From: SAR86 cluster bacterium
GTDB taxonomy: Bacteria; Pseudomonadota; Gammaproteobacteria; Magnimaribacterales; Magnimaribacteraceae
NCBI GenBank assembly: GCA_029268615.1
Contig: JAQWNM010000010.1
Location: forward strand, 248,001 to 312,000
DNA length: 64,000 nt
Reading direction: 5' to 3'
Shown here: piece after piece, positions 4,595 to 31,161 of the stretch
Layout: every line of letters begins with the position of its first letter
How positions within the stretch are numbered: position 1 is the first letter of the stretch
Position numbers and translations under genes: made by a program
The notes under the pieces: generated by a model
The model's database searches: none
What the model was told of the DNA's origin: nothing
What the model saw: only the letters and a program-made list of their open reading frames with translations

Positions 4595-6115
<1,521 letters not shown>

Positions 6116-6128
<13 letters not shown>

Positions 6129-7873
6129 GACCCTGTTTTTCTTGTCTTATCTAAATGCATATCTGCCAAAGACATTGAAGCTTCTAACATAGGATAAACA
6201 TGCTCTTCAGGGTCTACATCAATATCTAAAAAAACTAATTTTGTCTTCATTTTAAAACACTGCTTCATAGCTTTCTTGAGATCTTTATAATGAGTAACTT
6301 TTATTCCTACGTGACCATAAGATTCTGCTAATTTTATAAAATCTGGTAAAGAATCTTCATAAGTACTGTGTGATAATCTTCCATCGTACTGCATATCTTG
6401 CCATTGTTTTACCATTCCCAGGGCTGCATTATTAACATTGATTATTTTTATAGGTAGTCCATATTGAAGACACGTAGATAATTCTTGAATACACATCTGA
6501 ATACTCCCTTCTCCAGTAACGCATGCAACTATGTCATCAGGGAAGGCAAATTGAACACCCATAGCTGCTGGAAGGCCAAATCCCATAGTGCCTAATCCTC
6601 CAGAATTAATCCACCTTCTTGGTTTATCAAATTTATAGTACTGAGCAGCAAACATTTGATGCTGGCCAACATCGGATGTAACAAATGCATCCCCTTTAGT
6701 TTCTTTATATAAAGCCTGTATTACCTGTTGTGGTAATATTTTCTTTCCTTTAGGTCTCTTATCTATTAAATCATGATCCAAGCCGTAATCTTTTTTCCAC
6801 CCCTTAATCTTTTTGTGCCAAGGACCTATCTTATCTTTCTCTATTAGATGTTTTTTCTTAATTAAACCTTCATAAATACTCTTCAACACAGATTTTGTTG
6901 ATCCCACTATAGGAACATCTATGTCTATAATTTTATCAATTGATGCCGGATCAATGTCAATGTGGATCTTTTTTGATTCCAAAGAAAATTTCTTTGGATT
7001 ATTAGTAATCCGATCATCAAACCTTGCCCCAACTGCAAATATAAGGTCACTTTCATGCATCGCCATATTTGCTTCATAAGTTCCATGCATTCCAAGCATT
7101 CCTAAAAATCTATTCTCATTTGCAGGATAAGCTCCTAAGCCCATTAAAGTACTTGTTACAGGGAAATCTAATAATTTAGCAACTTTTATTAACTCCTTTG
7201 AAGCATTAGCATTAATCACACCACCTCCAGAATAAATAACTGGCCGTTTTGCTTGTAGTAATAATTTAATAGCTCTTTTTATCTGACCTGGATGCCCATC
7301 TTCTTTAGGTTTATAGGATCTAATAGAAATATTCTTTTTGTATTTATAGGAAACTCGATGCTCTGCATCGGTTAGATCTTTTGGAATATCTACAACAACA
7401 GGTCCAGGCCTCCCAGAAGTAGCAATATAAAAAGCCTTACTTATAATATCAGGTATATCTTCGGCTCTTTGTACTAAAAAGTTATGCTTTACTACAGGTC
7501 TTGATATTCCAATCATGTCTGTTTCTTGAAAAGCGTCAGTTCCAATTAAAGGGGCTTTTACCTGGCCTGAAATAATCACTAAAGGAATGGAATCCATAAA
7601 GGCCGTAGCTATTCCAGTAATTGCATTGGTTGCGCCTGGTCCGGAGGTCACAAGAGCAACTCCAGGTTTGCCTGAAGCTCTCGCATACCCATCTGCTGCA
7701 TGAACTGCAGCTTGCTCGTGTCGCACTAAAATATGTTTTATGTCTTTTTGCTGAAATAAAGCATCATAAATAAATAAAGCCGCTCCTCCTGGGTAACCAA
7801 ACAGAAGATCTGTACCTGCATCGCGTAAAGAAAGCATTAAAGCTTCTGCGCCTGAAACGTTTTTTATTGCCAC
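6116..7873 (-). CDS. ilvB: Acetolactate synthase large (catalytic) subunit
   Basis: 585 residues with the three-domain thiamine-diphosphate enzyme layout. The N-terminal pyrimidine domain has GYPGGAALFIYDAL with the following R-H-E-Q-A-A glutamate loop. An FAD/Rossmann-like middle domain follows. The C-terminal diphosphate-binding domain carries GEGSIQM followed by NNAALGMVKQWQ. It condenses two pyruvates, or pyruvate plus 2-oxobutyrate. The start codon is GTG at 7873. The leader before it is about 45 bases if the promoter noted at 7923-7950 is used, so there is no room for a classic ilv attenuator. First gene of ilvB-ilvN-ilvC-pssA. Confidence 0.96.
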
Positions 7874-22863: not shown

Positions 22864-23961
22864 TTAACTTATAGAAGCCAACAGTAATTCTTGAGTATAT
22901 GGATGTTGAGGATGATTAAAAATATCATTACACCAGCCCTTTTCAACAATCACTCCATCCTTCATAACATATACAAGATCGGATATGCTTTGTATAACTC
23001 TTAAATCATGACTAATACATAAATAAGAAAGATTAAATTTACTTTGTAACTCTAATAATAGATCTAAAATCTGAATTTGTATTGAAACATCAAGCGCTGA
23101 AGTTGGTTCATCTAAAAGAACTAACTTTGGCCTAAGAATAATAGCTCTAGCTATAGCTACTCTTTGTCGCTGTCCGCCTGACAGTTCATGAGGAAATCTG
23201 TTTATAATTTCTAAATCTAAGCCCACATCCTTGATAGCCTCAAAAATTCTTGCATTTCTGTCTTTAAGGTTTAATTTTTTTTCATGCACCTTGAGCCCCT
23301 CACCTATAATTTCTCCTATAGTAAATCTAGGGGAAAGAGACCCAAAAGGATCTTGAAAAACTATCTGAAAATCTTTCTTTAAATTTCTAAAAGATTCTTT
23401 GCTTAAATCTTTTAAATTTGCCCCTTCAAAATAGACTTCACCTTCATATTTTTCTAATCCTAATAGAGCTCTTGCAAGAGAAGATTTACCTGACCCAGAC
23501 TCCCCTACCAATCCAACAGTTGAACCTCTAACTAGAGAAATATCAACAGAATCAATAGCAGTAAAATATTTAACGCTTTCAAAAAAAGAATTTTTTCTAA
23601 GCTTGTACTTAACACTCAAATCTTTTGAAGTTAGAATTGGATCTTCATTCTTCTTGTCATAATCTTTTGCTTTAGGTATGGAATTAATTAATTCCTTGGT
23701 GTATGCCTCTTTCGGGCTATCAAATATTTCACTTACAGATCCATTTTCTATTATTTGTCCTCCTTTCATAACACAAACTCGATCAGAGAACTTCTGCACA
23801 ACATTTAAATCATGAGTAATGAATAATATAGCCATACCAATCTCTTTCTGAAGATCTTTTAATGTCTTAAGAAGTGATTTCTCTACAGTTACATCTAAAG
23901 CTGTGGTCGGTTCATCTGCGATTAATAAATCAGGTTCATTTGCAAGTGCCATAGCTATCAT
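22864..23961 (-). CDS. yejF: YejF-like peptide ABC transporter ATPase, C-terminal part (frameshifted gene)
   Basis: 365 residues: the end of the first ATPase domain (Walker B LLIADEPTTALDVT) and a complete second ATPase domain. The latter has Walker A GESGSGKSSLARALLG, signature LSGGQRQRVAIARA and Walker B LVLLDEPTSALDVS. Together with the fragment at 23936-24466 it makes the double-ATPase protein of oligopeptide/microcin C-type transporters (YejF, about 530 residues). The join is broken by one extra A in a run of ten (24009-24018). With nine, the frame reads PEKKIESYPHQLSGGQ straight into MIAMALANEP, and the whole protein would be 533 residues. No permease or binding-protein gene is adjacent. 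Confidence 0.85.
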   Translation of the reverse strand: MIAMALANEPDLLIADEPTTALDVTVEKSLLKTLKDLQKEIGMAILFITHDLNVVQKFSDRVCVMKGGQIIENGSVSEIFDSPKEAYTKELINSIPKAKDYDKKNEDPILTSKDLSVKYKLRKNSFFESVKYFTAIDSVDISLVRGSTVGLVGESGSGKSSLARALLGLEKYEGEVYFEGANLKDLSKESFRNLKKDFQIVFQDPFGSLSPRFTIGEIIGEGLKVHEKKLNLKDRNARIFEAIKDVGLDLEIINRFPHELSGGQRQRVAIARAIILRPKLVLLDEPTSALDVSIQIQILDLLLELQSKFNLSYLCISHDLRVIQSISDLVYVMKDGVIVEKGWCNDIFNHPQHPYTQELLLASIS

Positions 23962-24466
23962 GACCCTCTGACGCTGGCCCCCAGAAAGTTGGTGAGGATA
24001 AGATTCTATTTTTTTTTTCTGGTTGAGGTATTCTCACTTTATGCAAAAGATCCAATGTCTTTTTATTTGCTTCTTTTGAATCAAAACCCCGGTGAACAAG
24101 AAGAACTTCATTTATTTGCTTACCCACTTTCTGAAAGGGATTTAAAGAGGTCATAGGTTCTTGAAATATCATTGAGATTTTATTACCTCTTAATTTTCTA
24201 ATTTTATTCTTTGTAATTCCTATTACTTCTTGATCCTTGAATTTGATAGAAGATTCAGAAGTGTGGGAAGCTAAGGGATATGGAAGAAGTTGCATAATAG
24301 ACATGGCAGTCACAGATTTTCCTGAACCTGATTCACCTACCAAAGATAACGTCTCTCCTTTGCAAATATTAAATGAAATATTATTTAAAGCATCAAATGC
24401 CCCTTTAAAAGAATTAAAATTAACACTTAGATTATTTACTTCTAGAAGATAATCAGACATGCTCAT
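23936..24466 (-). CDS. yejF: YejF-like peptide ABC transporter ATPase, N-terminal part (frameshifted gene)
   Basis: The first 150 residues are a normal ABC ATPase: Walker A GESGSGKSVTAM (about 42-53), a Q-loop (IFQEPMTSLNP), and helices up to PQPEKK. After the A10 run the frame goes astray (NRILSSPTFW...) and stops at 23936, inside the downstream fragment. The signature LSGGQRQR is found only in the other frame. The missing permease genes make the role uncertain. Either the gene is a pseudogene, the run is miscalled, or slippage on the A tract restores the full protein. The start ATG at 24466 or 24460 overlaps the end of the upstream esterase. Confidence 0.85.
   Translation of the reverse strand: MSMSDYLLEVNNLSVNFNSFKGAFDALNNISFNICKGETLSLVGESGSGKSVTAMSIMQLLPYPLASHTSESSIKFKDQEVIGITKNKIRKLRGNKISMIFQEPMTSLNPFQKVGKQINEVLLVHRGFDSKEANKKTLDLLHKVRIPQPEKKNRILSSPTFWGPASEGHDSYGTCK
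24009..24018 (-). other. yejF: A10 homopolymer carrying the frameshift
   Basis: Ten T on the plus strand read as ten A in the coding strand. Removing one A restores an intact YejF reading frame at exactly the expected place in the protein, just before the ABC signature. Confidence 0.8.
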
Positions 24467-25490
24467 TTTGTTTTGATAAAGATACTAAATCCAAACAAGC
24501 TTCTTTTATTGCAGACCTACATTCAGGAATAACACCAAATTGGGCAAAAGCATGAATAAAACCAGGTTGTTCTTTGTAAATTACATCAATTCCAGATAGT
24601 TTGAGTTTTTGAGCGTATTCATAACCTTCGTCGCGAAGTGGATCAAACCCAGCGGTCACTATTACGGAAGGGGGTAAGCCAGTAAAATCTTCTGCTAGTA
24701 AAGGACTGGCCAAAGGATTCATAGCATCATTATTAGTTATGTAATTGTTTACAAACCAACGCATCATATTTCCTGTTAAGAGAAAACCTTTATCATATAG
24801 CTTATATGACTCAGTTAGGTATCTTAGGTCTGTTACCGGGTAAAATAGTAACTGCCCAAATGGCATTGACTTATTGGATTCCTTCCTAATGAGGCATAGA
24901 GCTGCAGAAAAATTACCTCCTGCACTATCTCCACCTGTATAAATTCTAAGAGGATCAACCCCAAAACCTTCTGCGTTTGCAATCAACCATTCATATGCAT
25001 AATGGCAATCATTTAACGGTATAGGAAATTTATATTCAGGAGATCTTCTATAATCAACAGAGAAAATATTAATGCCCAAAAGATAAGATAAATATTTGCA
25101 TAAATTATCATGACTCTCTAGGTTCCCCGAAGTAAAGCCTCCACCGTGAAAGTATAAAAGTGACTTCTCTGAAGAGTTTTTAGAAATATATTGTCGTACT
25201 TTAATAGATCCATCCTCTACTTCAACATGATGATCAAGAGTCTCAAGGTTATCCGATTTTTTTGAATAAAATGACATTGGATTAGGCTGATCATAATTCT
25301 TTCTGAAATCAGAAGCGCTTAAACTACTATAATCGATCTCAGAATTTTCATTCTCTGACATTGATAACATCAGCTGAAAGCTTGGTAATAACTTCCTTCC
25401 ATGGAGATTTATTTGCTTTTTCCTAGATAAAAATAATTTTATAAAATCTGGAAGATTCATCATGAAAGTTAGCAGAATTTTTTGAATCAT
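24453..25490 (-). CDS. Alpha/beta hydrolase, hormone-sensitive lipase family (esterase)
   Basis: 345 residues. The HSL-family signatures are plain: oxyanion hole H-G-G-G at 115-118 (FHGGGF), nucleophile elbow GDSAGG with Ser189, acid Asp283 (GFDPLRDEG), and His313 (GFIHAF). The expected activity is hydrolysis of short to medium acyl esters or lactones in the cytosol. An N-terminal hydrophobic, basic segment may form part of the cap. It shares 14 bases with the downstream ABC ATPase gene and lies 4 bases from the copper chaperone gene on the same strand. The substrate is unknown. Confidence 0.9.
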   Translation of the reverse strand: MIQKILLTFMMNLPDFIKLFLSRKKQINLHGRKLLPSFQLMLSMSENENSEIDYSSLSASDFRKNYDQPNPMSFYSKKSDNLETLDHHVEVEDGSIKVRQYISKNSSEKSLLYFHGGGFTSGNLESHDNLCKYLSYLLGINIFSVDYRRSPEYKFPIPLNDCHYAYEWLIANAEGFGVDPLRIYTGGDSAGGNFSAALCLIRKESNKSMPFGQLLFYPVTDLRYLTESYKLYDKGFLLTGNMMRWFVNNYITNNDAMNPLASPLLAEDFTGLPPSVIVTAGFDPLRDEGYEYAQKLKLSGIDVIYKEQPGFIHAFAQFGVIPECRSAIKEACLDLVSLSKQNEHV

Positions 25491-25494
25491 AGCT

Positions 25495-25938
25495 TTATTT
25501 AAAGGGTATATTTATTAAAAACTCATCATCCTTTCCCAGGGCCAAGTAACATGAAATATATTCTTTATCAAAAAATTCTCTCTTTAAACCCATCAACATA
25601 AGATGTCTTCCGCCCTCTTTGAGTTTAATAGATTCATTTAAATCAAGAATAATTTTATCTTCTTTAATCATTTGTAACATCTGATTTTCTTCACTTAACC
25701 TCATATTATGAAATGATGACATAGTTACTCCATCACATTTAATCCCCGAGATAGTTATTACTTGATCAGAAATATTTTTTAAAGTCATATAAGCGGCAAT
25801 GCTTTCTTGCCCTTTCATTGGGAAATTTCCATACGGCTGATCTATACTAAGAGGGTATGAAGTATTCTCATTAGAGCAAGTTGAGAAGAGAACTATGATG
25901 AACAAGAAAAGAATATTATTAAAATTGGGGACACTCAT
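25495..25938 (-). CDS. PCu(A)C-type periplasmic copper chaperone lipoprotein
   Basis: 147 residues with a short signal ending in a lipobox-like LFSTC, so likely a lipoprotein. The domain has the PCuAC pattern AAYMTLKNISDQ, then a His (SFHNMR), a Met (NQMLQM), and H-L-M-L-M-G-L. These are the H..M..H-x-M ligands that bind Cu(I) for delivery to the CuA site of cytochrome oxidase. The start codon ATG at 25938 lies back to back with the CTG-like start of the divergent DsbD-type gene, with no bases between. Confidence 0.85.
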   Translation of the reverse strand: MSVPNFNNILFLFIIVLFSTCSNENTSYPLSIDQPYGNFPMKGQESIAAYMTLKNISDQVITISGIKCDGVTMSSFHNMRLSEENQMLQMIKEDKIILDLNESIKLKEGGRHLMLMGLKREFFDKEYISCYLALGKDDEFLINIPFK

Positions 25939-26415
25939 CTGAAATTATTTTTAATTTTTAATTTATTAATCTTACAAATTGTACATGCATTGCCTGTTTC
26001 TGCAGATCAGAATATTAATTCATTAATTTTTAAAAGTCAGAAAATTTTAAAAGAAGATGAAGCTTTTAAAATTTCTGCTAGCTACAAAGGTAAAGGTATT
26101 ATTTCTTTGCAATGGGACCTTAGTGAAGGCGTATACCTTTATAAAGATAAAATTTCCATCAAAAGCGATGTTGAAGTAACTATTAAAGATTTGCCTCCAG
26201 GAAAATTAAAGTATGATGAATTCTTTGGAGAATCTGAAGTATATTTCAATCAAGTCTCTGCTAACTTAATTTACGATGTAACTAAACTCACTAGTTTTAT
26301 CATAACTTTTCAGGGGTGCAGTATTAAAGGCTATTGTTACCCTCTAATAAGAAAAGAGCTCAAGCTTCAAGAAAATACTATAGAGATTAATAAAATTGAA
26401 CTTAAAATCTCTTAA
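25939..26415 (+). CDS. Stand-alone DsbD N-terminal (DsbD-alpha) periplasmic domain
   Basis: The domain matches the N-terminal immunoglobulin-like domain of DsbD. The two redox cysteines are kept with the correct spacing (FQGCSIKGYCYP, Cys-x5-Cys, as C103/C109 in E. coli). The frame from the first standard codon (TTG at 25990) lacks a signal peptide. The reading upstream of it, KLFLIFNLLILQIVHA then LPVSA, is a clean signal peptide that starts at a CTG codon at 25939, so a CTG start is inferred. The membrane and C-terminal thioredoxin domains of DsbD are absent. In Pseudomonas dsbD stands just before aroQ-accB-accC, and the same genes follow here, so this may be a reduced relic of dsbD that still works. 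Confidence 0.75.
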   Translation: MKLFLIFNLLILQIVHALPVSADQNINSLIFKSQKILKEDEAFKISASYKGKGIISLQWDLSEGVYLYKDKISIKSDVEVTIKDLPPGKLKYDEFFGESEVYFNQVSANLIYDVTKLTSFIITFQGCSIKGYCYPLIRKELKLQENTIEINKIELKIS

Positions 26416-26462: not shown

Positions 26463-26906
26463 ATGTCAAATTTTCTATTACTTAATGGACCAAACTTAAA
26501 TCTCTTGGGAACAAGAGAACCAGAAATTTATGGTAAAGAAACTTTAGACGATATAGAAAATGTACTATGTTCGATAGCTAATAATTCTGGCCAAACTATA
26601 GAATCATTCCAAAGCAATGCGGAGCATGAATTAGTTGATAAGATTCAAGCAGCAAAGTTAAAAAATATTGCTTGCATTATATTTAACCCAGGAGCTTTAA
26701 CTCATACAAGCATAGCTTTAAGGGATGCTTTTTTAGGCACTGCAATACCATTCATTGAGGTTCACATCTCTAATATTTATAGTAGAGAAGATTTTAGAAA
26801 AGAATCTTTTTTATCTGATATTTCAATTGGAATTATTTCAGGTCTTGGCACGAAAGGTTATGAATTAGCTTTAGAAGCTGCAATTACTAAATATGGAAAT
26901 AATTAA
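26463..26906 (+). CDS. aroQ: 3-dehydroquinate dehydratase, type II
   Basis: 147 residues, typical for the dodecameric type II enzyme that makes 3-dehydroshikimate in the shikimate pathway. The N-terminal motif [18 protein letters not shown], which holds the active-site loop, and the later NPGALTHTS and EVHISN segments are characteristic. The arrangement aroQ-accB-accC is common in gammaproteobacteria. Confidence 0.96.
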
Positions 26907-26908
26907 AA

Positions 26909-27349
26909 ATGGATATAAGAAAAGTAAAAAAATTAATAGAAATGCTTGAATCTTCAAATCTCGAAGAAATTGAAATCCAAGAAGGCGAAGAATCAGTTAG
27001 GCTGGTAAAAAGAAAAAATAGTCATGTCAATCTACAAGAAGTTTCTCAACCAATAGAAGTCCAATCAACTCAAAAAATTGAAAAAGATGAGCCCTCAATA
27101 GAAGAACAGACTGTGAGCAATGCAATCAAATCTCCTATGGTTGGAACTTTTTATGCTTCCCCCTCCCCAGGAGCTAGAGAATTTGCAAAAGCGGGTGACA
27201 TTATAAAAGAAGGAGATGTTGTTTGTATTGTTGAAGCAATGAAGATGATGAATGAAATTAAATCTGAGTTTTCAGGAAAAATTCTAAAAGTACATACAGA
27301 TAATGCCTCTCCAGTAGAGTTTGGCCAGACACTCTTCACGATAGAATAA
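26909..27349 (+). CDS. accB: Acetyl-CoA carboxylase biotin carboxyl carrier protein
   Basis: 146 residues. An N-terminal helical part and a glutamate-rich linker lead to the C-terminal biotinyl domain. The biotinylated lysine is K112 in VEAMKMMNEI. It carries carboxybiotin between AccC and the AccAD transferase in fatty acid synthesis. It starts only 2 bases after aroQ and ends 12 bases before accC. Confidence 0.96.
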   Translation: MDIRKVKKLIEMLESSNLEEIEIQEGEESVRLVKRKNSHVNLQEVSQPIEVQSTQKIEKDEPSIEEQTVSNAIKSPMVGTFYASPSPGAREFAKAGDIIKEGDVVCIVEAMKMMNEIKSEFSGKILKVHTDNASPVEFGQTLFTIE

Positions 27350-27361
27350 AAAAATTAGTAA

Positions 27362-28696
27362 ATGATAAAAAAATTAGTAATAGCTAATCGAGGAGAAATT
27401 GCGCTCAGAATCCTAAGAGCTTGCCGAGAATTAGATATTAAAACAGTTGCAGTTTATTCAGAATCCGATAGAGATCTGATGCATGTAAAAATGGCAGATG
27501 AATCAATCTGCATAGGACCATCCGACTCCTCTTTAAGTTATTTAAATATACCTGCTATCATAAGCGCTCTGGAGTTAACAGGAGCTGATGCAGTACATCC
27601 TGGATATGGCTTTCTTTCAGAAAATCCTGATTTTGCAGAAAAAGTAGAAAAAAGTGGATTTCATTTCATAGGCCCTAGTGCAGAAGTGATTAAAAAAATG
27701 GGTAATAAAGTATCCGCTAAGAAATTTGCTCTTGAATCAGGTTTACCTATTGTTCCTGGGACTGATGGTGCTGTGGATGATAACCCAGAAGCGCAAGCAG
27801 ATAAAATTGGCTATCCTCTAATAATCAAAGCTGCATCAGGGGGAGGCGGAAGAGGAATGAGGATAGTAGAAAATAAAGAAGATCTGGAGAATGCAATAAA
27901 TCTAACCCAAAAAGAGGCTGCTTCATCTTTTGGGGATTCCACTGTATACATGGAAAAATTTCTTCTACATCCAAGACATATTGAAATCCAGATATTGGCA
28001 GATAAATTTGGAAATGTAATTCATCTTGCTGATAGGGATTGTTCTCTTCAAAGAAGACACCAAAAGGTCATAGAAGAAGCTCCTGCTTTAGGAGTTCCTG
28101 AAGAGCTAAGACAAGATATGTTTTCTAGATGTATTGATGCCTGTAAAAAACTAAATTATGTGAGCGCAGGTACTTTCGAATTTCTTTATGAAAATAATAA
28201 TTTTTATTTTATTGAGATGAACACAAGAATACAGGTCGAACATCCAGTCACAGAGCAAATAACGGGACTAGATCTTGTAAAGTTGCAGCTCAGAATTGCT
28301 AGAGGAGAAGAGCTTTCCTTAAAACAAGAGGACATAGTTTTTAGAGGTCACGCTATAGAATGTAGAATTAATGCAGAGCATCCTAAGACTTTCCTTCCTT
28401 CTCCTGGCAAGATAACTGAATATCATCCTCCTGGAGGTATTGGTGTGCGGGTAGATTCTCATATCTATCAAAATTATACTGTACCTCCATTTTATGATTC
28501 TTTAATATCTAAAATTATAGTCAGAGCTAATGACAGAGAGGATACTCGGATAAGATTGTTAAGAGCTCTAGATGAAATGCAAATCTCCGGAATTGATACA
28601 AACATAGAAACCCATAGAAATCTTATAAATGATGAAAAGTTTATTTCTGGTAATTTTGATATCAATTATCTAGAAGAAAAATTTAAACCAAAGTGA
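27362..28696 (+). CDS. accC: Biotin carboxylase (acetyl-CoA carboxylase subunit)
   Basis: 444 residues, normal length. The ATP-grasp enzyme carboxylates biotin with bicarbonate and ATP. Visible motifs include the start [21 protein letters not shown], the glycine-rich loop [12 protein letters not shown] and the active-site [14 protein letters not shown]. It overlaps the leuS start (GTGA), so translation is coupled. In many relatives prmA follows accC; here leuS takes that place. Confidence 0.97.
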
Positions 28697-31161
28697 TAAA
28701 AGACAATAAAAACTTCTATAATTCTGATGAAGTAGAAAAAAAAGCTCAGGAATTCTGGGAAAAAAATAATTCATTTGAAGTCTCAGAAGATGATAATAAA
28801 GAAAAATTTTATTGCTTAAGCATGTTTCCATATCCAAGTGGGAATTTACATATGGGTCATGTAAGAAATTATACTCTTGGCGATGTCATTAGCAGGTTCA
28901 ATAGAATGTTAGGAAAGAATGTTCTTCAGCCCATAGGCTGGGATGCTTTTGGTTTACCTGCTGAGAATGCCGCCCTTCAAAATAAAGTTCAACCTTCAGA
29001 TTGGACTTATGAAAATATTAAGAATATGAAGTCACAGCTTAAAAGCATGGGATTTTCTTATGATTGGAAAAGAGAATTTGCTACATGTGATGAAGATTAC
29101 TATAAATGGGAACAATGGTTTTTCTTAGAACTAGTAAAAAAAGATCTGGCTTATCAAGAAGAAGCTGAAGTTAATTGGGATCCAGTCGATATGACTGTAC
29201 TAGCGAATGAGCAAGTTATTGATGGAAAGGGTTGGCGTTCTGGGGCAATAGTAGAAAAGAAAATTATTAAGCAATGGTTTCTCAGAATAAGTAATTTTTC
29301 AGAAGAACTACTGAAGGGCTTAGATTCTCTCGAAGATTGGCCCGAACAAGTGAAAACGATGCAGAGAAATTGGATTGGATACTCTGAAGGAATGGAGTTT
29401 AGATTTAAAATTGAGACCGGAATTGAAGAAATTTCTGTTTTTACAACTAGGCCAGACACAATCATGGGAGTTTCTTTTATAGCTCTTTCCCCTAACCATT
29501 CTGTTATCCAGAATTATTGTAAGAACAATAATGAGATATCAGACTTTTTGAAACAAGTAAATAAAGTAAAAGTTTCAGAGGCTGATTTCGCAAAACAAGA
29601 AAAAATAGGAGTAAATACTGGCTTATTCGCTATTCATCCATTTTCCGAAGAAAAGATCGAAATTTGGGCAGCTAACTTCGTAATCAGCGACTATGGTTCA
29701 GGAGCTTTGATGGGAGTCCCAGGTCATGATCAAAGAGATTTTGAATTCGCAAAGAAGTATAACTTATCTATAAAAAAGGTTATTCAGCCTTTTTTAGATG
29801 ACAAAGAAGAAGTTAACCTTAAAAAAAATGTCTTAATAAACTCAGATGAATTCAATGGGCTAAATTACGATGAAGCTTTTATAGCCATTTTACACAAGGC
29901 AACCACACTAAATTGTGGTGTCAAGAAAACTAATTATAGACTTAGAGACTGGGGTATATCGAGACAAAGATATTGGGGAACTCCTATACCAATTCTAAAA
30001 GACTCAGATGGAAAAAATATACCGGCCTTTGATTTACCAGTTTCTTTACCGAAACAAGTTAAATTTAAAGGAGTTTCTTCTCCTCTAAAAGATATGAAAG
30101 AATTTCTTTCTCTTAAACATAAGAATAAAGAATATGAAAGAGAGACTGATACCTTTGATACTTTCTTTGAATCTTCTTGGTACTTTGCTCGCTTTGCTTC
30201 ATATGACAGTAAAGAATCCATGCTTGATGAAAGAGTGAATTATTGGCTTCCAGTCTATCAGTATATTGGAGGAATAGAGCATGCAATTCTTCATTTACTT
30301 TATTCTAGGTTCTTCTATAAATGCCTTCGTGAATTAAAACTAGTAAAAGGAGATGAGCCTTTTACTAAATTACTATGTCAAGGTATGGTTTTAAAAGATG
30401 GGTTCAAAATGTCTAAATCTAAAGGTAATACTGTAGATCCAGAACCTCTCATAAAAAAATATGGGGCTGATACCGTGCGACTATTTATTCTGTTTGCCGC
30501 ACCTCCAGAACAAACTCTTGAATGGTCAGATGAAGGCCTCAAAGGATCTTCAAGATTTATAAAAAAAATATGGAATTTAATTCATGATCATATAAAGGCT
30601 GGGATTCCAGATGGGATCTTAATGGATCCTAAATCTGAAGAAGAGATACAACTTAGAAGAAAAACTCATCAAACTATATTAAAGGTGAGAGACGATTATG
30701 AAAGACGACAAACTTTTAATACAGCCATTGCAGCTATTATGGAATTAACAAATACAATCCCTAATTCCTTTTTAGATGTAAATGCCTCTTTATCAAAGAG
30801 AAGAGTGGTGCATGAAACAATTCATGCTATTGTTTTAATGTTATCTCCTGTCACTCCTCATTTATGCCATCATTTATGGCAATTACTTAATACAAATCTA
30901 AAAAAAGATATATTAAATGAATCATGGCCAAAAGAAGATAGGAAAGCTTTAATAAATGATCAACTTGAAATAGCTATCCAGGTTAATGGGAAATTAAGAA
31001 ATACCTTAAAGGCAACAAAAGATATGTCTCGAGAAGAAATCCAAGAAATAGCTATATCTGATGAGACTATAAATAAATATATTTCAAAAAGAGAAATACA
31101 AAGAATTGTTTATGTGCCGGGAAAGATAGTAAATATAGTAATTAAAGATGAAAAGAATTAG
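28693..31161 (+). CDS. leuS: Leucyl-tRNA synthetase
   Basis: 822 residues of a class I aminoacyl-tRNA synthetase. The HIGH-like motif is HMGH in the [16 protein letters not shown] block, and the KMSKS motif is [12 protein letters not shown]. The CP1 editing domain lies between, with TTRPDTIMG. It starts with GTG at 28693 within the accC stop. leuS-lptE-holA is a conserved gammaproteobacterial cluster. Confidence 0.97.

Follow-up and report, generated by a model that had tools for sequence, protein, structure and literature searches.

The locus considered here raises the question of what a DsbD N-terminal domain (nDsbD) does when it is encoded as a protein of its own, immediately upstream of aroQ, and from where it would draw its electrons. 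The gene, referred to below as the orphan, lies in the window, a stretch of 64,000 nucleotides from a SAR86 cluster bacterium (contig JAQWNM010000010.1, positions 248,001 to 312,000; G+C 0.32-0.38), and was examined against a set of 101 genomes of the same order, which range from 0.7 to 1.8 Mb. In the labels used, G denotes a genome (G000 being that of the window), L a fetched locus, f a family (f1 being that of the window) and g a group within a family. The genes at 26463-31161 are those that we take to be aroQ, accB, accC and leuS, the names following the initial annotation. The features concerned are as follows.

24453..25490, minus strand: alpha/beta hydrolase (Pfam), beside the PCu(A)C gene in the window
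25495..25938, minus strand: PCu(A)C copper chaperone, lipoprotein-like (Pfam, 5.9e-16; copper ligands H77, M90, H112 and M114; cysteines C68/C130)
25915..26415, plus strand: orphan nDsbD gene (Pfam, ORF list and relatives; the start is a set of candidates)
25939..26004, plus strand: signal peptide-like stretch LKLFLIFNLLILQIVHALPVSA (sequence; an ATG and a comparable stretch are present in most relatives)
26215..26229, plus strand: cap loop DEFFG over the active site (sequence and alignment; E. coli D68-E69-F70-Y71-G72)
26317..26337, plus strand: redox cysteine pair C-x5-C, GCSIKGYCY (sequence; kept in 61/61 fetched relatives)
26463..26906, plus strand: aroQ (ORF list; adjoins the orphan in 61/61 fetched loci)
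26909..27349, plus strand: accB (ORF list; present in 57/61 fetched loci)
27362..28696, plus strand: accC (ORF list; present in 55/61 fetched loci)
28693..31161, plus strand: leuS (ORF list; present in 60/61 fetched loci)

Identity of the encoded domain

The initial annotation described the product as a DsbD N-terminal domain with both redox cysteines, and the description holds. Pfam assigns the product to DsbD_N (PF11412) at 4.1e-22, with a score of 78.9 bits where the cut-off is 25. The match spans positions 2-116 of the 119 in the profile, and DsbD_N is the single domain coded by the frame, which is open from 25888 and closes with the stop codon at 26413-26415. The cysteine codons at 26317-26319 and 26335-26337 (FQGCSIKGYCYP) supply the C103/C109-type pair, and the cap loop with its aromatic F70 is present also; the role of this loop over the nDsbD active site is treated in the available text of PMC7347389. 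No membrane or thioredoxin domain follows DsbD_N on its 3' side at the locus, where aroQ comes next, and the score against the canonical DsbD model NF001419 is 89 bits where 330 are required, with coverage of only positions 8-142 of 574. Going by its reading frame, the orphan is not a canonical three-domain (alpha-beta-gamma) DsbD.

A profile built from an alignment of 34 orphans returned E. coli nDsbD structures as its first matches (1l6p at 1.1e-26). The AlphaFold model of the orphan (mean pLDDT 85) has 1jpe, also E. coli nDsbD, as its best match, with a TM-score of 0.85 by target and an rmsd of 1.6, and the top 18 PDB matches of the model are all nDsbD, from E. coli or Neisseria. The orphan is therefore predicted to take the immunoglobulin-like fold of nDsbD. 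Its identity as a complete nDsbD, aromatic cap loop and both redox cysteines included, is confirmed.

Start codon and signal peptide-like stretch

The divergent PCu(A)C gene (PF04314) starts at ATG 25938, within the start region of the orphan, in keeping with the adjacency that had been noted from the sequence. A CTG start at 25939 had also been proposed for the orphan. Indeed, the window has no in-frame ATG, GTG or TTG ahead of the hydrophobic stretch, which was judged signal peptide-like by eye and by hydrophobicity score, and nearly all relatives have an ATG ahead of such a stretch. CTG 25939 is not the sole candidate, however, since ATT codons at 25915, 25918 and 25924 are candidates too; a start at TTG 25990 would drop most of the signal peptide. 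Where the PCu(A)C overlap of a relative is divisible by three, the CAT opposite the PCu(A)C ATG is also in the frame of the orphan, and the orphan begins at an ATG 6 to 12 codons before this shared CAT. ATT 25918 and ATT 25915 lie 6 and 7 codons upstream of it in the window; when the sequences are aligned by the shared CAT, these two codons fall at the start position of the relatives, and CTG 25939 falls a few codons later. The CTG thus stands as one of several candidate starts, itself unproven.

Two side observations concern this region. Out of frame with the orphan, two ATG codons at 25895/25898 begin a basic peptide of 15 residues that has its stop at 25940-25942, ending just where the CTG frame of the orphan turns signal peptide-like. 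Further along the minus strand, an ABC transporter ATPase gene (22864-24466) is split into two frames at an A run (24011-24018); the fetched relatives have it as a single ORF apart from L071, where it is also split, and the split may be either an assembly error or a true break. Given this frameshift, a small assembly error near the orphan start is possible. A search of IMG/VR with the exact start region of the window gave no match.

Distribution and selective constraint

A DsbD_N match is present in 96 of the 101 genomes of the order, and the orphan is carried by at least 65 (the window, 61 fetched orphan-length copies from different genomes and three found next to aroQ). It lies beside aroQ in all 61 fetched loci, which span f1-f3, with stop-to-stop gaps of -19 to 67 bases and no gene in between. 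The f2 loci L044, L067, L077, L081 and L088 have aroQ and leuS, accC not having been found at these loci, and locus L049 ends at a contig end. On the other flank, an alpha/beta hydrolase gene accompanies PCu(A)C within f1 only in the window's genome and in L050 (G002), and in f2 an alpha/beta hydrolase gene is found on the divergent side of the orphan; in the g16 locus L047 a gene resembling a flavin monooxygenase by eye (5378-6730) stands between orphan and hydrolase.

The motif GCx5CY is kept in all 62 orphans (61 fetched plus the window's), and five residues (C, C, Y, D and G), which belong to the active site and the cap loop, are invariant in 34 of 34 aligned orphans. For pairs within twelve groups of close relatives, with dS between 0.05 and 2, the median dN/dS of the orphan is 0.26 (46 of 52 pairs with usable dS), compared with 0.07 for aroQ (44 pairs) and 0.31 for PCu(A)C (33 pairs); frames were taken from stop to stop, so that a few codons before the start are included in these values. 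In these pairs the orphan evolves under purifying selection, and since it is also retained in so many genomes with its cysteine motif intact, it is not decaying.

The fourth family differs. Among the matches listed for f4 (21 genomes) there is no orphan-length match, G067 having one weak match, and the order aroQ-accB-accC-leuS is seen without the orphan in the four genomes viewed (G037, G043, G049 and G082).

Relationship to canonical DsbD

The suggestion that the orphan occupies the usual place of dsbD, before aroQ-accB-accC, agrees with the rest of the class, where 15 of 21 fetched loci of full-length DsbD, a non-random set drawn mostly from high scorers, show aroQ no more than 2 kb downstream. 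At six loci from Woeseiaceae and similar genomes, aroQ follows canonical DsbD at about 0.7-2.6 kb, and the orphan profile matches these DsbD loci at 6e-24 to 6e-47; it finds none of 18 fetched ScsB-type ORFs at E up to 10. The tree separates the ScsB N domains at 100/100 and places the orphans among canonical DsbD N domains, and an assignment of the orphan as a ScsB N domain was rejected on both counts. The orphans form one group at 70/86, in 80% of bootstrap trees computed from only 120 columns. Their single origin appears likely on this topology, with modest support.

N-only genes were found at the same place in two other lineages, f88 and f151, among the matches listed. In each of the three f88 genomes drawn (G184, G307 and G409), aroQ is preceded by a TlpA-like thioredoxin gene (L164:4851-5843, L166:4641-5285 and L161:2516-3316; by Pfam for two of them) and, further upstream, by an N-only gene of 221-241 codons. 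Elsewhere in G307 and G184 there is a DsbD_TM-plus-thioredoxin ORF that has no N domain (by Pfam for the G307 copy only), and G184 has a second DsbD_TM match of 245 codons; the corresponding ORF of G409 begins at a contig end, such that an N domain cannot be judged. The f88 arrangement looks like a natural two-gene split of DsbD. Within f151, the N-only gene of G247 (170 codons) precedes aroQ-accB-accC, and the single DsbD_TM match of this genome is an ORF of CcdA size (246 codons); G358 has a full DsbD of 606 codons.

Three further short loci (L163, L165 and L168) were discarded as N-only genes, being short because they are cut by contig ends. Additional copies, not next to aroQ, are L160 (G275, 280 codons) and L162 (G151, 176 codons), whose genomes encode a full DsbD as well; the L162 copy (5015-5542) is a free, lipoprotein-like nDsbD. 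A tandem double N domain precedes the DsbD membrane part in many members of the class (L034-L038, L180, L181, L184, L192, L194, L195 and L199). DsbD itself is said, by the title of a 2002 paper by Katzen, to be the product of domain fusion in transmembrane electron transport. A free-standing nDsbD is not named in the titles and abstract openings listed on this subject from the PubMed Central open literature.

Electron supply and candidate clients

The initial annotation drew attention to the missing electron-supplying domains, and proposed a search for a CcdA-like partner. The membrane and thioredoxin domains are indeed gone from the orphan chain. No canonical DsbD was found in G000, a draft genome that is 96% complete, but an ORF of 684-688 aa at G000:C9 contains DsbD_N, DsbD_TM and thioredoxin-like domains. 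This second DsbD_N match was considered as an intact canonical dsbD and rejected in favour of a ScsB-like protein, since it scores 113 bits against the DsbD model (cut-off 330) and its best PDB match is the N domain of Proteus mirabilis ScsB (6c29, 2.7e-12). It keeps two membrane cysteine sites and the motif TADWCITCK. The gene of an AhpC/TSA-type redoxin overlaps its end, an arrangement that fits the ScsB-thioredoxin-peroxiredoxin chain of Caulobacter as given in the available part of PMC5403849. Electron supply is thus not absent from the cell, given that a ScsB-like three-domain reductase is encoded in it. No CcdA-like partner came to light with PF02683, the membrane family of DsbD and CcdA: searched with it at E up to 1, G000 gave one match only, inside the ScsB-like ORF. 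An intact dsbD elsewhere, together with decay of the orphan in relatives, had been named as the outcome that would refute the initial reading; what was found is a ScsB-like second protein and purifying selection.

Across the order, DsbD_TM scores over its cut-off in 90 of 101 genomes, once in each, in ORFs of 646-717 aa with the exception of three shorter pieces (G033, G049 and G083), and all 18 of these ORFs that were fetched have an N domain of ScsB type by its WHTYW motif. Candidate clients are widespread too, with DsbC_N in 84 and DsbE/CcmG over cut-off in 76 of the 101 genomes, G000 included in both cases; three proteins of G000 match the CcmG model, one of which is CcmG itself by score.

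The likeliest reading, in which we place about half of our confidence on these comparative grounds, is that DsbD has undergone fission and that the orphan is a free periplasmic electron shuttle with the ScsB-like protein as its donor. An ancestral, aroQ-linked DsbD would have lost its membrane and C-terminal parts, leaving the N-terminal (alpha) domain free. Exported to the periplasm, this domain would retain its fold together with the C-x5-C pair and the protective cap loop. Its re-reduction in trans would fall to the thioredoxin-like domain at the C terminus of the ScsB-like reductase, and it would hand electrons to periplasmic thiol proteins such as DsbC and CcmG. The head-to-head PCu(A)C of f1, with its new cysteine pair, may be a further client. 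According to the accessible text of PMC7347389, nDsbD normally receives electrons from the DsbD C-terminal domain and passes them to CcmG.

Several observations weigh against such a shuttle. ScsB has an N domain of its own, so a second one is not obviously needed, and the dN/dS of the orphan is above that of aroQ (0.26 versus 0.07). Six orphan-bearing genomes have no DsbD_TM match (G002, G005, G007, G012 and G028, each less than 90% complete, and G065, 92% complete), which counts against ScsB as the donor. Finally, f4 lacks the orphan among the matches listed, but 16 of its 21 genomes have DsbC and 18 of 21 match CcmG strongly (E 2e-27 or better); loss of the orphan along with either protein was rejected accordingly, and these clients can evidently manage without it.

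The divergent PCu(A)C gene

It had further been suggested that the orphan may be a reductant for periplasmic copper delivery, with conservation of its pairing with PCu(A)C as a point to check. The pairing holds within one family: PCu(A)C is found in 31 of 35 f1 genomes, and wherever an f1 locus has the orphan, in 30 of 30 cases, the two genes are adjacent and divergent. In f1 genome G017 the PCu(A)C gene is at a contig end, and four f1 genomes, 50-89% complete, have neither gene among the matches listed. Beyond f1 the pairing fails, PCu(A)C being found in 0 of the other 66 genomes.

The H, M, H, M copper motif is invariant in the 31 f1 PCu(A)C proteins. In the window's protein M-x21-H-x-M is exact and the first H lies 13 residues before the M, as against the motif H(M)X10MX21HXM, in which copper is bound by Met and His (PMC6696091, available text). 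C68 and C130 are likewise invariant in the mature f1 proteins (31/31). Among 29 PCu(A)C proteins from elsewhere in the class, which are top-scoring loci and hence not a random sample (L238 being aligned only in fragments), C68 occurs in two, C130 in none and both together in 0/29; none of five PDB alignments has a cysteine at these columns. To our knowledge PCu(A)C is generally without cysteines. The orphan shows a family-specific pattern as well: a third cysteine is present in 28 of the 29 f1 orphans other than the window's, the remaining one having two, and two cysteines only are found in the window's orphan and in all 32 orphans from outside f1. The cysteine patterns, as they appear in the alignments, are compatible both with a thiol link between orphan and PCu(A)C and with a structural disulfide.

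The predicted starts of the two genes overlap by 8-65 bases in 26 of 28 parsable f1 loci, even when each is placed at the last ATG, GTG or TTG ahead of the hydrophobic stretch; the set excludes L049, which did not parse, and the window, which has no strict start. Overlaps of 149 nt (L046) and 173 nt (L075) probably reflect misplaced starts and were not used. Of the 30 f2 and f3 loci tested, 26 yielded values, which are a gap, two shared bases or 9 bases (three g15 loci), and in L096 an overlap of 80 or 2 depending on the choice of ATG. In a survey cited here from part of its text, none of 75 divergent overlaps longer than 60 bases was real (PMC2478687); nearly all of the f1 start overlaps are shorter than this.

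These data bear on a second explanation, namely that the f1 orphan is a dedicated reductant for copper delivery, keeping the PCu(A)C cysteine pair reduced for thiol-switched loading or release of copper. The constant pairing, the cysteines peculiar to f1 in both proteins, the overlapping starts and the presence of SCO1 in the window's genome would all suit such a role. Nevertheless, the explanation is considered unlikely: the orphan is constrained in f2 and f3, where PCu(A)C was not found, the window's own orphan has no third cysteine, C68/C130 may be a plain structural disulfide, and known PCu(A)C binds copper via Met and His (PMC6696091, available text). Since the pair is confined to f1 and the orphan is distributed more widely, copper delivery is unlikely to be its only job; a secondary, family-limited copper link is plausible from the gene pattern. 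In its boldest form, which must likewise be rated doubtful, the f1 nDsbD and the cysteine-bearing PCu(A)C would be a co-expressed, thiol-switched copper pair fed by the membrane reductase, with the two signal peptides encoded within the same few tens of bases, one on each strand, and fission would have occurred more than once upon replacement of DsbD by a ScsB- or CcdA-type protein.

Other explanations for the orphan

A TlpA- or CcmG-like thioredoxin, as opposed to ScsB, might reduce the orphan, which would then be a side carrier or sink. The f88 loci lend this idea some substance, in that the TlpA-like protein encoded between the N-only gene and aroQ is apparently membrane-anchored by sequence, and the three CcmG-model matches of G000, CcmG itself among them, would offer candidates. 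It is somewhat less probable again than a dedicated copper role, however, because the interval between orphan and aroQ holds no gene in the 61 fetched loci, and because nDsbD normally is fed by the DsbD C-terminal domain and gives to CcmG (PMC7347389, accessible text). A non-redox function, such as that of a periplasmic binding protein or of a structural partner, is improbable for the domain; the redox activity of the orphan is a prediction, but the invariance of the five active-site and cap-loop residues in 34 of 34 orphans argues for it. Lastly, a decaying, functionless remnant is scarcely credible: the other parts of DsbD are missing, the gene is absent from f4 among the matches listed and the window's copy has no ATG start, but this pseudogene reading was rejected on the cysteine pair (62/62), the median dN/dS of 0.26, the ATG and signal peptide-like stretch of nearly all relatives, and a place conserved across three families.

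Comparison with known systems

The conserved free-standing nDsbD is real, and is best read as a product of DsbD fission. If such a conserved fission is true, nDsbD could serve as a diffusible adaptor, with the electron-giving domain freed and another reductase family taking over the membrane step. A route from ScsB via free nDsbD to DsbC and CcmG would be a directly testable case, and the f1 pair is a candidate case of thiols controlling a copper chaperone whose class has been described as binding copper through Met and His.

Of the known systems, the orphan comes closest to the alpha domain at the N terminus of E. coli DsbD (1jpe, 1l6p and 3pfu), with which it has in common the fold, as predicted, the C-x5-C pair, the cap loop and the signature QGC..G.CYP. 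It differs in being a free protein with its own signal peptide-like stretch, the chain having neither membrane nor C-terminal domain. CcdA, which is DsbD cut down to the membrane domain, provides another instance of DsbD parts on separate genes (PMC4460558, available text), but here it is the N domain that stands alone. The membrane reductase of G000 resembles Proteus mirabilis ScsB (6c29) and the ScsB of Caulobacter, with a redoxin gene next to it, whereas the orphan itself is an N domain of the canonical DsbD type. In Bradyrhizobium, TlpA reduces Sco (PMC6696091, available text). Known PCu(A)C proteins with their Sco and TlpA partners share the Met/His copper motif with the f1 protein, in a genome that encodes SCO1; the f1 protein is set apart from them by its additional invariant cysteine pair and by a start region shared with an nDsbD gene.
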